From Candidatus Nitrosopumilus sp. (GTDB lineage: Archaea > Thermoproteota > Nitrososphaeria > Nitrososphaerales > Nitrosopumilaceae): 64,000 nt of DNA. Both the position numbers and the translations under genes were made by a program. The notes beneath the pieces were generated by a model that worked only from the letters and a program-made list of their open reading frames with translations, made no database searches and had not been told where the DNA came from. Location: the NCBI RefSeq assembly GCF_029882185.1, contig NZ_JAOULD010000006.1, forward strand, positions 1 through 64,000. The letters run 5' to 3'. This document shows positions 13,312 to 18,437 of this stretch, piece after piece (the stretch's first letter is position 1; each line of letters starts with the position of its first letter).

Positions 13312-13827
13312 TTAGTATAATTTTTTCTTTGTAGCATATGCTAAAATCGCACATATTGTTTTTGAATCTTGAATTTTACCTGACTTTATCATTGACAGGG
13401 CTTTTTTGAAATCCATTTTTACTACTGATAAAATTTCATCCTCATCAAGTTTTAAATCCGATATTTTTTTTAATCCTGAGGCTACAAAGCAATGGATAAT
13501 CTCGGCATTATACCCAATTGAGGGATAATATGTAATGAGAGGAGTCATTTTTTTTGCTCTATATCCTGTTTCTTCTTCTAATTCTCTAAATGCACATTTT
13601 ATTGGCTCTTCTTTTTTCTCTAATGTTCCTGCAGGAATTTCTAAAACATAACCATGTGGATATCTATGTTGTTTTACTAGTATTATTTTTTTTTCTTCAT
13701 CAAAAGCTAGCATTGCTGCAGCACCTCTATGTTTGATATATTCTCGTTTAACTTTTCTACCTTCTATTTTTCCATCATAAACGCTAAGACCTAATATTTT
13801 TCCTTCATAGATCTTTGTTTCTTTCAT
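13312..13827 (-). CDS. Nudix hydrolase (ADP-ribose pyrophosphatase-like)
   Basis: A 171-aa hydrolase of nucleoside diphosphates linked to another moiety. The Nudix box starts at [11 protein letters not shown] and continues through [13 protein letters not shown], matching GX5EX7REUXEEXGU with all catalytic Glu residues. The [20 protein letters not shown] segment downstream is typical of ADP-ribose or NDP-sugar pyrophosphatases. It is convergent with the AbrB/PhoU gene and abuts it. Confidence 0.9.
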
Positions 13828-13852: not shown

Positions 13853-14755
13853 TTAATTTGTTTGATATGTTAAATGTAATTTTGGAGATTTTCTAAAATT
13901 ATTAATAGCTTCTTCAATCCATTTTACATAAAATGAAATCTTTTTTGGAATGAACAAATCAGCTGATTTTATATTTTGAATATTCCTTACTTTTTGTGTT
14001 AATTCATCCATTTTGTAAATATTATTACTATACATAAACAGAACAATTTGATTTTTTGCTACAAAGGGAATTTGCAAGTATGATTCAGAAAATGAATTAT
14101 TGAGATTTCCTAAAGTTTCTTTAAGATCTCCTTCTATCCATGTTAATATGGCATGAGGAATAAAATCTTCAATTTTTTTAGGGTCATAAACTAATGTGAA
14201 TTGAATTCCATCATTTCCATACAATTTTTCAATACATCTTGTTATTGTTTTTGTTGACATTCCTGTATTTCTTGCAATTTGTTCTATTCTTTGTCTAGGA
14301 TCTTTGATTAGCTCTTCTAAAATCTCTAAATCTGTTTTTGTAAGATTTGAATCATATCCTGGATTTTCTGCTTCAAAAATTGATAAAACTCTGACATCTT
14401 TCATTAATTTTTTTGCTAACTCTATTTTTTGTTCCATGTTCTCTTTTACAGAAATGCCACAAACCGTTACTCCTCCAACACATGGAACAACAAAATACGG
14501 TTCTCCTACAAGACTAGCTTGCTCTAAAATTTCTTTTGTATTTTCACCTGATACAACAAAGTACAAGACACCATAACCCAAAACAGGAGGTTCAACTTTG
14601 ATGAAAAATTCTTCAATAATCTTCTTTGCCTGCATTTTTCTAATTCTAGCTCTTACTGCTCCTCCGGAAATTCCTAATTCTATGCCTATTTGCCTGTCTG
14701 ATTCTCTACAATTATTTAATAATCTAGTGAGGATTTTCATATCTAAATTGTCCAT
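13853..14755 (-). CDS. Lrp/AsnC-family regulator with two HTH regions
   Basis: A 300-aa transcription factor. The first HTH (MKILTRLLNNCRESDRQIG) is followed by an Lrp ligand-binding-like domain. A second HTH (LEILEELIKDPRQRIEQIA) sits at about residues 143-180 and is followed by another alpha/beta domain, so the protein looks like a duplicated Lrp unit. Only about 100 bp separate it from the ABC exporter operon on the other strand, which makes that operon a reasonable target. No effector can be inferred. Confidence 0.85.
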   Translation of the reverse strand: MDNLDMKILTRLLNNCRESDRQIGIELGISGGAVRARIRKMQAKKIIEEFFIKVEPPVLGYGVLYFVVSGENTKEILEQASLVGEPYFVVPCVGGVTVCGISVKENMEQKIELAKKLMKDVRVLSIFEAENPGYDSNLTKTDLEILEELIKDPRQRIEQIARNTGMSTKTITRCIEKLYGNDGIQFTLVYDPKKIEDFIPHAILTWIEGDLKETLGNLNNSFSESYLQIPFVAKNQIVLFMYSNNIYKMDELTQKVRNIQNIKSADLFIPKKISFYVKWIEEAINNFRKSPKLHLTYQTN

Positions 14756-14775
14756 TTTATCACCTATAATGACTC

Positions 14776-14858
14776 CTATGACTATAAAAATTACTAATAT
14801 GATATAAAATTGTCTATACTGTTAGCACTATACATAATAGACATTAAATATTAGACTA
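14776..14858. promoter_or_regulatory. Divergent promoter region with GACTAT-type repeats
   Basis: The spacer between the Lrp-type gene and the ABC permease holds GTCTAT at 14812-14817 and its complement ATAGAC at 14837-14842, plus further GACTAT-like copies near 14780 and 14854. A TATA-like ttaaata at 14844-14850 lies about 27 bp before the ATG at 14872. It may be an Lrp-type operator, though AT-rich sequence makes chance matches likely. Confidence 0.35.
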
Positions 14859-14871
14859 TTTGACTTATTTT

Positions 14872-16059
14872 ATGGATTATCGATTAAAACTAGCAAAACG
14901 AATGCTCTTCAATAAAAAAGGCAGTTTGATTGGGGCTGTATTAGCGGTAACAATTGGAATTTTAGTTATTCATGTAAACTTTGTAATTTTTCAAGGATTG
15001 TTTGATGCAATAGTTAGAGACATCAGTGATTATAGAAATGGTGATATTCTTGTAACTGACGAAGCTGACTTCATAGATAAATCCGATTTGTCAATTGTAA
15101 ACTGGTTTGAAAGAATTCCATATGTTGATGCGGCAACACCTCGGCTTTCATCGACGGCTGAAATGAATATGACTAAAAACGGGAAATTAATCGAAGAAAC
15201 AAGAATTCCAATAGTTGGAGTTGATCCATTTCGTGATATATTAGCATCAACTGTACATGAAACAGTTTCTGAAGGAAGTTATGTATTTTCAAGAAATTCA
15301 ATTGTTTTAGGAACCTCTGTAGCAGAAGATCTTGGAGGAGCTCAAGTTGGAGATAGTGTCAAAGTTCTTGTAGTTGATAGATGGGGACAAGATCAAATTA
15401 GGAGATTTACTGTTTCTGGAATTGCTAAATCTCCTGGAGGTCAAGGATTTGATTACACTGCAGTTGTACATATTGATACTTTACGTGATATGATGAATAG
15501 ACATGGGGACACAGGTTCATTTATGGTAAAACTAAATGATCCTTCTAAAGCATTTGAGGTAAAAGAATTCTTTTTACGTTCATTTCCAAATGATGATTTT
15601 CTTGCAGAAACAATAGAAGAATCAGCAGAACAACAGCTTGCTGGTTTTAGATCTGGAATTGCAATGATTAACATGATCGGATATTTTGGAATGATGTCAT
15701 CTGCATTTGCAATTGTAACAATTCAGATGATGTTAGTTAATGGAAAAACAAAAGAAATTGGTGTAATGAGAGCAATCGGGGCTAAAAGAAAAGACATTCT
15801 AATTATCTTTATTTTTCAAGGTATGATAATCGGAGCAATCGGAGCTGGAGTAGGAACAGCTGCAGGTTTAGGGTATACTGTATATGCAAAAGAGACAAAG
15901 ATGTCATTTAACAATAGTTTGCCTCTAGAAGTTAGTTACAATTGGGAAAAAATCATCCAAACTGCCTTGACTTCATTTGCTTTGGCCATCATTGCATCAC
16001 TATATCCGTCGTATAGAGCTACAAAGCTGTTACCTGTGGAGGCGATGAGAACTGTCTAG
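14872..16059 (+). CDS. FtsX/MacB-like ABC transporter permease
   Basis: A 395-aa inner-membrane subunit of a MacB/LolCDE-type ABC system. One N-terminal helix (residues about 18-40) is followed by a MacB periplasmic-core-like domain facing outward, then three helices carrying FtsX-family motifs such as KTKEIGVMRAIGAKRKDI and YPSYRATKLLPVEAMR. The ATG at 14872 is preferred because a TATA-like box lies about 27 bp upstream; a TTG at 14860 is the alternative. The gene is followed directly by its ATPase and an exported protein. Confidence 0.9.
   Translation: MDYRLKLAKRMLFNKKGSLIGAVLAVTIGILVIHVNFVIFQGLFDAIVRDISDYRNGDILVTDEADFIDKSDLSIVNWFERIPYVDAATPRLSSTAEMNMTKNGKLIEETRIPIVGVDPFRDILASTVHETVSEGSYVFSRNSIVLGTSVAEDLGGAQVGDSVKVLVVDRWGQDQIRRFTVSGIAKSPGGQGFDYTAVVHIDTLRDMMNRHGDTGSFMVKLNDPSKAFEVKEFFLRSFPNDDFLAETIEESAEQQLAGFRSGIAMINMIGYFGMMSSAFAIVTIQMMLVNGKTKEIGVMRAIGAKRKDILIIFIFQGMIIGAIGAGVGTAAGLGYTVYAKETKMSFNNSLPLEVSYNWEKIIQTALTSFALAIIASLYPSYRATKLLPVEAMRTV
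16038..16046 (+). promoter_or_regulatory. Strong Shine-Dalgarno site before the ABC ATPase
   Basis: GGAGGCGAT matches 8 of 9 bases of the ideal archaeal site GGAGGTGAT. It ends 5 nt before CTG at 16052 and lies inside the end of the permease gene. It argues that the ATPase is translated from that CTG. Confidence 0.65.
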
Positions 16060-16759
16060 TGTACTTGAGGTAAATAATCTCAGTAAAATTTACGGAGAAG
16101 GTGATAATCAAGTAAAAGCTCTTGATAATATTTCATTTACAATTAAGCAAGGAGAATTTGTATTAATTGTTGGAAGTTCTGGTTCTGGTAAATCCACGTT
16201 ACTAAACATGATTGGATTATTAGATTCTCCAAGTAATGGAGAAATTTTCATTGATGGAACAAACACCACATCACTTGGAGATGATCAAATTTCTTCATTT
16301 AGAAATAAAAAATTAGGATTTATTTTTCAATTTTCTAATTTACTTACTGATCTTTCAGTTTTAGAAAATGTATTACTACCAATCCAAATTGCAGGATCAA
16401 GTAACACTGCTGAAAAAGATGCTAGAGATTTGTTAAAAGCAGTTGGACTAGAAGACCAAATCAGTAAACGTGCAAATAAAATATCTGGTGGCCAAGCTCA
16501 AAGAGTTGCTATTGCAAGAGGATTAATCAATAAACCTTCTATAATATTAGCAGATGAACCAACTGGTAATCTTGATTCAATAACATCTCAAACTATAGTA
16601 GAATTAATGAAATCAATGGCAAAAAAACTCAATCAAACATTCATTATCGTTACACACGATAGAGAACATTTTGGTAATGTTGACAGAGTAATTACAATTA
16701 AAGATGGTAAAGCATTTGAGGGCGATCAACCATCAGAAATGGAGATTGTTACAAAATGA
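16052..16759 (+). CDS. ABC transporter ATP-binding protein (MacB/LolD type), probable CTG start
   Basis: ATPase partner of the upstream permease. From CTG it is 235 aa, normal for the family. The N-terminus reads SSVLEVNNLSKIYGEG, followed by Walker A GSSGSGKST (residues about 40-48), signature SGGQAQRV, Walker B IILADEPTGNLD and the His of VTHD. The first in-frame ATG (16208) would remove Walker A, so it cannot be the real start. No ATG, GTG or TTG exists between the in-frame stop at 16046-16048 and Walker A. The gene overlaps the permease by 8 bp and the next gene by ATGA. Confidence 0.85.
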   Translation: MSSVLEVNNLSKIYGEGDNQVKALDNISFTIKQGEFVLIVGSSGSGKSTLLNMIGLLDSPSNGEIFIDGTNTTSLGDDQISSFRNKKLGFIFQFSNLLTDLSVLENVLLPIQIAGSSNTAEKDARDLLKAVGLEDQISKRANKISGGQAQRVAIARGLINKPSIILADEPTGNLDSITSQTIVELMKSMAKKLNQTFIIVTHDREHFGNVDRVITIKDGKAFEGDQPSEMEIVTK

Positions 16760-18060
16760 GTTCTAAAATTATTTTATTATTATTTTCAATTGGATTTTTA
16801 CCACTTGTTTTTGATAATTCTTTTGCACAAATTACCTCTGGAGGATTTGGTCAATCTCCATTTGAAAGAGATTTTGGTGATGTCAAATTTTTAGATGCAT
16901 ACTTTGGTACAATTAATGAAAAAATTGAAGTTGAAGCAGGAGATGAAAATGTTCCATTTACTGTAGTATTGGCAAATGTTGGAACTCAGGATATTACGGG
17001 AATTAGAGGTCAGTTATCTTTACCTATGGGTTTTTCCGCATCTGATGGTCCTAGCTCAATTATTCGTGCTGACAGTGACTCAAATTCACTGGCTGGAGAA
17101 AATTTCCACATTACATTTTTTGTGAATATTGATAACAATGTCAAGATACAACAATATCCAGGAACTGTAAAAGTTGATTATTCTAGATTAAGAGAATCTG
17201 GAGTTAGAACAGCATTTGCTGATTTTGATTTTAAGGTCACTGGAGACAGTGTGATAAATGTTAAAGCACAAGAACCTTTTCTTACATCTTTAACAACAAA
17301 TAATGTTGTTATTGAGATTTCTAACGATGGAACTGCACCAATCTCTAGCGTAGATATTGTTGCAACAAATACATCTACAGAATTGGCATCTACTTCATCA
17401 TCAACAACTAATGTTGAAAATGTTGTAATTTTAGAATCAAGCTGGGATATTGGAAATATTAATCCAAAATCATCAAGATATCTTACTGCAACCGTATACG
17501 TTCCTGAAACACTAAAGGGTGATACATTAAGAATACCATTATCTATTTCATATTATAATGCGCATGGAGATCTTCATACAATTTCAAAAATTGTTGATTT
17601 TTACATCAAAGGACTAATTGATTTAACAATTTTCAATGTTGAAGTGATCAAATTATCTGGTACACAAATGGTGATTGGAGAAATTATTAATGAAGGAAAT
17701 GAGGATGGATTATTTGGTTTTGTCTCTATCAAACCAAAAGGCGATTCTAATATTAAACAAAGTACTCAATTCATTGATGAAATTGAAGTTGATGCACCTG
17801 TACCATTTAATGTTCCAATTGAATTTAACGGTCAACCAAGATATGGGGAACATGAGATTACAATTACAGTTAGATACAAAGATAGTACTAGAGATGAGAT
17901 ATTTCTAACTCAAGATCAAATAATTAATGTTGTCAAGCCATCAAATGATGATGAAAATGAAACTGATCCTGCAATAATCGTAATTCCAATTATTTTGATA
18001 GTAGGAATCGCAATTTACATAATTCGTAGGCGTAAAAAAACTGCAATTAAGGCAAGTTAA
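16756..18060 (+). CDS. Exported membrane-anchored protein of the ABC operon
   Basis: A 434-aa extracytoplasmic protein. A signal peptide (residues 1-24, ending SFAQ) is followed by repeated beta-sandwich domains like the COG1361 S-layer or CARDB type. A C-terminal helix (IIVIPIILIVGIAIYII, about residues 407-423) and a basic tail complete it. The ATG overlaps the ATPase stop. The position mirrors the adaptor partner of MacAB-like systems, so it may present substrates to the exporter or sense the envelope. The function is inferred from context. Confidence 0.8.
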   Translation: MSSKIILLLFSIGFLPLVFDNSFAQITSGGFGQSPFERDFGDVKFLDAYFGTINEKIEVEAGDENVPFTVVLANVGTQDITGIRGQLSLPMGFSASDGPSSIIRADSDSNSLAGENFHITFFVNIDNNVKIQQYPGTVKVDYSRLRESGVRTAFADFDFKVTGDSVINVKAQEPFLTSLTTNNVVIEISNDGTAPISSVDIVATNTSTELASTSSSTTNVENVVILESSWDIGNINPKSSRYLTATVYVPETLKGDTLRIPLSISYYNAHGDLHTISKIVDFYIKGLIDLTIFNVEVIKLSGTQMVIGEIINEGNEDGLFGFVSIKPKGDSNIKQSTQFIDEIEVDAPVPFNVPIEFNGQPRYGEHEITITVRYKDSTRDEIFLTQDQIINVVKPSNDDENETDPAIIVIPIILIVGIAIYIIRRRKKTAIKAS

Positions 18061-18104
18061 GAATATAATTTGAATCTAAAATGGAGAAATAAGGAATAAC
18101 AAAA

Positions 18105-18437
18105 TTGAGATTAACCATTATTGTTCTCATTGTAGTTTTGTCTGTAGGCAGTACAATAATTTCTCTAGGGTTTCTAACATCTCAAAAATACATTGACGTT
18201 CCTGAAATTTCTAATCAATATGAAAAATTAGAAAAGTACAAGAACGAACTGGAAAAAATCAATCAACATAATCAACAAGTGCTAAAAGATCTTGAAGAAC
18301 AAATAAAAAATTCTGACGATGTTCATCTTGATCAGATTAATACAGAAATCAAAATAATAAAACAAGTAATTAAAGAAAATAAAGAAGAACTTGAACAAGT
18401 AATTAAAAAATTGTCTCAAATGGAATCTGATCCATAA
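18105..18437 (+). CDS. Membrane-anchored coiled-coil protein
   Basis: A 110-aa unrecognised protein. An N-terminal helix (LTIIVLIVVLSVGSTIISLGF) should anchor it, and residues about 40-105 form a long Lys/Glu/Gln-rich coiled coil. The start is TTG. It follows the ABC operon by 44 bp on the same strand and may be cotranscribed. Function unknown. Confidence 0.65.
   Translation: MRLTIIVLIVVLSVGSTIISLGFLTSQKYIDVPEISNQYEKLEKYKNELEKINQHNQQVLKDLEEQIKNSDDVHLDQINTEIKIIKQVIKENKEELEQVIKKLSQMESDP

Follow-up and report, generated by a model that had tools for sequence, protein, structure and literature searches.

A conserved and probable CUG start codon at an overlapping permease–ATPase gene junction in the Nitrosopumilaceae

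Within the 64,000-nucleotide stretch of Candidatus Nitrosopumilus sp. DNA analysed here (the window), an ABC transporter ATPase is very probably initiated at a CUG codon at position 16052, in a manner coupled to termination of the upstream permease through a Shine-Dalgarno (SD) site and a short gene overlap. The CUG start of this ATPase dates to about the root of the Nitrosopumilaceae, a family of ammonia-oxidising archaea, a depth of CUG-start conservation for which our literature search found no earlier description. Each component of the arrangement is of a known kind; the depth of conservation appears to be the new part. The position of the start, the constraint on the SD site, the overlap, and the age of the codon are direct results of the comparisons presented below.

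The permease–ATPase junction and its operon

Across the junction (Table 1), the permease frame reads CCT GTG GAG GCG ATG AGA ACT GTC TAG, such that its final codons (PVEAMR-TV) harbour the SD site of the ATPase; from 16049, the ATPase frame reads GAA CTG TCT AGT GTA CTT. A TGA stop at 16046-16048 precedes the latter frame, which ends with a stop codon at 16757-16759. As the original prediction had stated, this frame is open only from 16049 and contains no ATG, GTG, or TTG before the P-loop, and initiation at its first ATG (16208, codon 53) loses the Walker A motif; i.e., the P-loop is intact only with initiation upstream of 16208. The further claim that the CTG at 16052 yields a normal 235-aa ATPase was likewise confirmed, with the P-loop-containing product scoring 124.6 bits against Pfam ABC_tran (gathering cut-off, 25) and returning phmmer E-values of 5e-57 to MacB and ~1e-55 to LolD and MJ0796. 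When translated from the CTG, its N-terminus aligns with those of MacB, MJ0796, and LolD starting at residues 3-5. Local RNA folding at the junction is ordinary (z = -0.30).

Table 1. Features of the permease–ATPase locus (window coordinates)
Feature	Coordinates	Strand	Basis
FtsX/MacB-type permease (LolC/E-like), stop TAG 16057-16059	14872..16059	+	Pfam, PDB matches
SD site GGAGGCGAT in permease codons V-E-A-M	16038..16046	+	GAGG invariant in 132 species
Probable ATPase initiation codon CTG	16052..16054	+	NTG in same register in 131/132 Nitrosopumilaceae
ATPase start/permease stop overlap, 8 nt, CTGTCTAG	16052..16059	+	Kept in family members compared
ABC transporter ATPase, 235 codons from CTG	16052..16759	+	Pfam ABC_tran, phmmer
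Walker A GSSGSGKS, residues 41-48	16172..16195	+	Translation of frame; 5' of first canonical start
Next gene, 434 aa, exported-looking, ATGA overlap with ATPase	16756..18060	+	Weak NEW3-type match

The permease itself exceeds the Pfam cut-offs for both FtsX (74 bits) and MacB_PCD (70 bits), with PDB matches to LolF, LolC, LolE, and MacB. Against the respective equivalog models, the ATPase scored 258.1 bits for LolD (TIGR02211), below the cut-off of 307.75, and the permease 121.4 bits for LolC/LolE (TIGR02212), below the cut-off of 362.45. In the window (13853-18434), the gene order is a divergent AsnC/Lrp-type regulator, the permease, the ATPase, and the exported-looking protein, the last of which scores 22.8 bits for NPCBM_assoc, under the cut-off of 24.4. 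In each of the 58 flanked relatives, the ATPase has the gene for this 434-aa protein downstream of it; the complete order is kept in 56 (one mirrored), and a gene for a 110-aa protein follows the operon in 48. Such conserved order suggests a single functional unit. Adjoining the operon is a NUDIX-type ORF (window 13312-13827); its counterpart in relative G010 (C1 1541198-1541581) is shorter, opens inside the conserved region, and may be broken or misassembled.

Conservation and age of the start codon

Orthologues were recovered from 86 of 95 genomes of the genus and from 216 of 250 genomes of the family (21 of 22 genera), and a scan of genome contigs yielded 80 loci. Order-level matches without a neighbouring permease were excluded as likely paralogues and duplicates were dropped, leaving 149 distinct permease–ATPase junctions, outgroups included. 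The start is CTG in 106 of these (relative G006, L169, among them), ATG in 19, TTG in 11, ATT in 6, GTG in 3, and ACG in 2. At L251, an ATG stands one codon to the left of the usual register (bringing the ATG total to 20 if counted), three of the six ATT junctions (L228-L230) carry it one codon to the right, and L233 is arranged differently. At L137 (G246) and L142 (G099), ACG takes the place of NTG; this could reflect an error in the sequence, a genuine ACG start of a very rare type, or, in the case of L142, a different N-terminus.

Across 132 Nitrosopumilaceae, the first base of the start codon is C, A, T, or G in 103, 16, 10, and 3 species, respectively, the second is T in 131, and the third is G in all 132, corresponding to 17, 1, and 0 parsimony steps. 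Since the second base is silent in the permease frame, its constancy is not explained by permease coding. All four bases of the GAGG core of the SD site likewise took 0 steps by per-site parsimony, including one that is the silent third position of a permease Glu codon; most silent sites near the SD took 25-45 steps. GAG accounts for 25% of the Glu codons elsewhere in these permeases, and GTG for 13% of the Val codons. Weaker SD variants (AGAGG, TGAGG) were present in 7 cases, alongside CTG, TTG, and GTG starts. In the window, GGAGG occupies 16038-16042, 9 nt upstream of the CTG, and the longer GGAGGCGAT ends 5 nt upstream. The 16S rRNA 3' end of three complete relatives, GGATCACCTCC, pairs with GGAGGCGAT with one mismatch in nine, bearing out the predicted near-perfect SD at a spacing of 5 nt; a search of the window's own assembly did not find this 16S tail pattern.

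These data bear on whether the CTG might be a sequencing error, or the gene a decaying one, with the ATPase starting downstream or nowhere. ORF callers restricted to ATG, GTG, and TTG do begin at 16208; however, such a start cuts off Walker A, and the CTG recurs across independent assemblies, at 106 of the 149 junctions. Moreover, ATPase codons 4-52 display 17.9 steps at third positions versus 5.3 and 2.9 at the others, a purifying pattern indicating that the segment upstream of Walker A is translated, and in 38 of 93 close relatives Walker A is not preceded by any other canonical codon. The probability left to error or decay is vanishingly small: conservation of the junction excludes the resequencing error considered earlier and marks the initiation codon.

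Highly improbable as well is the absence of any CUG start, in which case a +1 shift of frame where the permease ends would instead generate a permease–ATPase fusion. The two frames do overlap, and the close relative MacB is a fused ATPase-permease, but MacB carries its ATPase domain first, many relatives have ATG at the site, and the codon ahead of the permease stop (Val, Gly, or Ala) varies freely, as does the stop itself (TAA, 73; TAG, 34; TGA, 30), whereas the NTG and SD do not. We rejected a frameshift on these grounds; the 8-nt overlap remains unchanged throughout. Conversely, the proposed initiation at CTG is strongly supported by alignment with orthologous operons, through (i) family-wide conservation, with NTG in exact register in all but one of the family members, (ii) in-register replacement by ATG, TTG, or GTG, and (iii) the conserved SD.

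For the history of the codon, a tree of the 132 family members was built from permease plus ATPase with a quick FastTree run that leaves deep forks open, making the following switch counts approximate: parsimony places C at base 1 at the family root and counts about 15 separate losses thereafter (C>A, 9; C>T, 3; C>G, 3). Among lineages that share the gene order, the nearest sisters use an ATT start. In outgroups L228-L229, the junction is ATTAG with a 5-nt overlap, an arrangement that requires the non-canonical start ATT (PMC10666635), and farther outgroups start with ATG.

Probable initiation at a poor codon and its rarity

We propose that either a ribosome ending the permease at its TAG stop (16057-16059) or a 30S subunit drawn to that site would be placed by GGAGG and would then initiate at the CUG overlapping that stop. 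From what is generally known of initiation, initiator Met-tRNA, rather than Leu-tRNA, most likely reads this codon, and Met would be the first residue. The CUG is probably less efficient here than AUG would be, a handicap that would be offset by a strong SD and an overlap of 8 nt, thus allowing CUG to persist since approximately the family root with occasional swaps with AUG, UUG, or GUG. With its 8-nt stop/start overlap and intragenic SD of invariant GAGG, the gene pair has the makings of a coupled one, and termination-reinitiation would be the likely route. In both Haloferax and E. coli, translation is coupled in this way at short overlaps, to a degree of SD dependence that varies; genes for heteromeric-complex subunits are enriched in such overlaps (PMC6728339, PMC10666635). 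Counting against CUG initiation by such coupling, reinitiation is less effective at -8 overlaps than at shorter ones (PMC10666635), E. coli initiation complexes are less stable on CUG than on AUG, GUG, or UUG (PMC11497404), and the coupling is deduced from gene arrangement.

Given that AUG is generally favoured as a start (PMC5622118), the persistence of CUG calls for some explanation. In line with the original prediction's suggestion that a weak start might set subunit ratios, it could have been selected as a deliberately weak start lowering ATPase output relative to that of the permease, which we consider unlikely. CTG is indeed retained in 103 of 132 species with ATG a single change away, and the ATT of the sister lineages is likewise a poor start. 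However, base 1 (17 steps) evolves no more slowly than bases -1 and -2 (18 and 14 steps), other genes also appear to retain non-canonical starts, and C has changed to A approximately nine times with the SD unchanged, arguing against any strict need for a weak start. Permease coding could also hold the C in place, as the permease residue containing this base is mostly T or S (also N, Y, F, V, A, G, or I). Selection on the start, selection on the permease tail, or plain tolerance may each account for the persistence of C.

CTG starts had been described as rare in archaea, and two lines of evidence support this. Among 347 conserved non-shadow ORF pairs compared between 400-kb stretches of relatives G010 and G004, the ATPase is the only gene found to keep, in both relatives, a CTG start with an SD ahead of it, i.e., CTG starts are rare in this sample of the genus. 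Published reconstructions contain 2 switches to CUG from 61,358 AUG starts, 1 from 5,080 GUG starts, and 1 from 2,468 UUG starts (PMC5622118), which we sum to 4 per 68,906. As switches to CUG are thus almost never seen in close relatives, a root-old CUG kept in most of the family is unexpected. Where the frame of a tandem gene opens close to the stop of the gene before it, G010 and G004 share a conserved canonical start at 79 of 85 junctions. A raw scan for an SD plus a near-cognate codon gave many false internal matches (ATT or ATA within genes), hence only cases lacking a canonical start were retained. One candidate, a roadblock-like gene (G004 C1 1528403-1528762, minus strand; L298), has CTG where 29 other orthologues have ATG or TTG, and was rejected as a conserved CTG start in favour of an isolated switch.

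Two further genes drew our attention. For a uppS-like gene (G000 C7 42120-42911, plus strand; G010 C1 1308206-1309000, equivalent to L193:8206-9000; orthologues L258-L287), 30 Nitrosopumilus genomes display, at the aligned start, ATT in 22, ATA in 3, ATG in 2, and ATC, GTT, and TTT in 1 each, with a GGTGA-type SD upstream and, in most genomes (that of the window included), no ATG, GTG, or TTG upstream in frame. A conserved gene without assigned function (G000 C72 7180-7833, plus strand; orthologues L318-L340) has ATA or ATC, once GTG, as the first codon of its conserved protein; it shows no clear SD and, in most genomes, no canonical start where the conserved region begins, and is possibly leaderless with a non-canonical start. 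Both genes hint at permissive start selection in the lineage and suggest that non-canonical starts form a small but real class therein. We would tentatively extend this, at somewhat less than even confidence, to the idea that the Nitrosopumilaceae, and perhaps the wider order, are unusually permissive in start selection, with CUG (ATPase, SD-led), AUU/AUA (uppS), and AUA/AUC (the third gene) as stable inherited starts and the affected gene set possibly mis-annotated.

Were this so, annotators limited to ATG, GTG, and TTG might truncate or miss a definable gene set in these abundant archaea; for the ATPase, such a finder could begin at codon 53 and so delete the P-loop. The junction also offers a natural test of whether a strong SD plus a stop/start overlap relaxes archaeal start recognition, for which the in-register ATG, TTG, and GTG orthologues are ready controls.

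Comparison with known systems

The ATPase and permease both match LolCDE, MacB, and MJ0796-type (type VII) ABC transporters. The present system differs in consisting of a single permease gene, an ATPase encoded separately, and an exported-looking protein further downstream, and in scoring under the NCBIfam LolD and LolCE cut-offs. Long retention of a rare start codon is also known from bacterial infC, a gene with a conserved AUU start that is autoregulated through IF3; in contrast, nothing links the transporter to start-codon discrimination, and its codon switches freely to AUG.

The overlapping gene pairs that Huber et al. (2019, 2023; PMC6728339, PMC10666635) describe as coupled by termination-reinitiation resemble the junction in their short overlap (-8 here), intragenic SD, and partnership within one complex, with the ATTAG -5 overlap of L228-L229 matching the ATT-requiring case described in PMC10666635. 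Unlike in those pairs, the start here is a CUG kept across a family, and coupling is here predicted from sequence arrangement. Finally, the non-AUG prokaryotic starts analysed by Belinky et al. (PMC5622118) share the combination of a sub-optimal codon with a strong SD, as well as switches back towards AUG; CUG is almost absent among those starts, whereas in the ATPase it is family-long.
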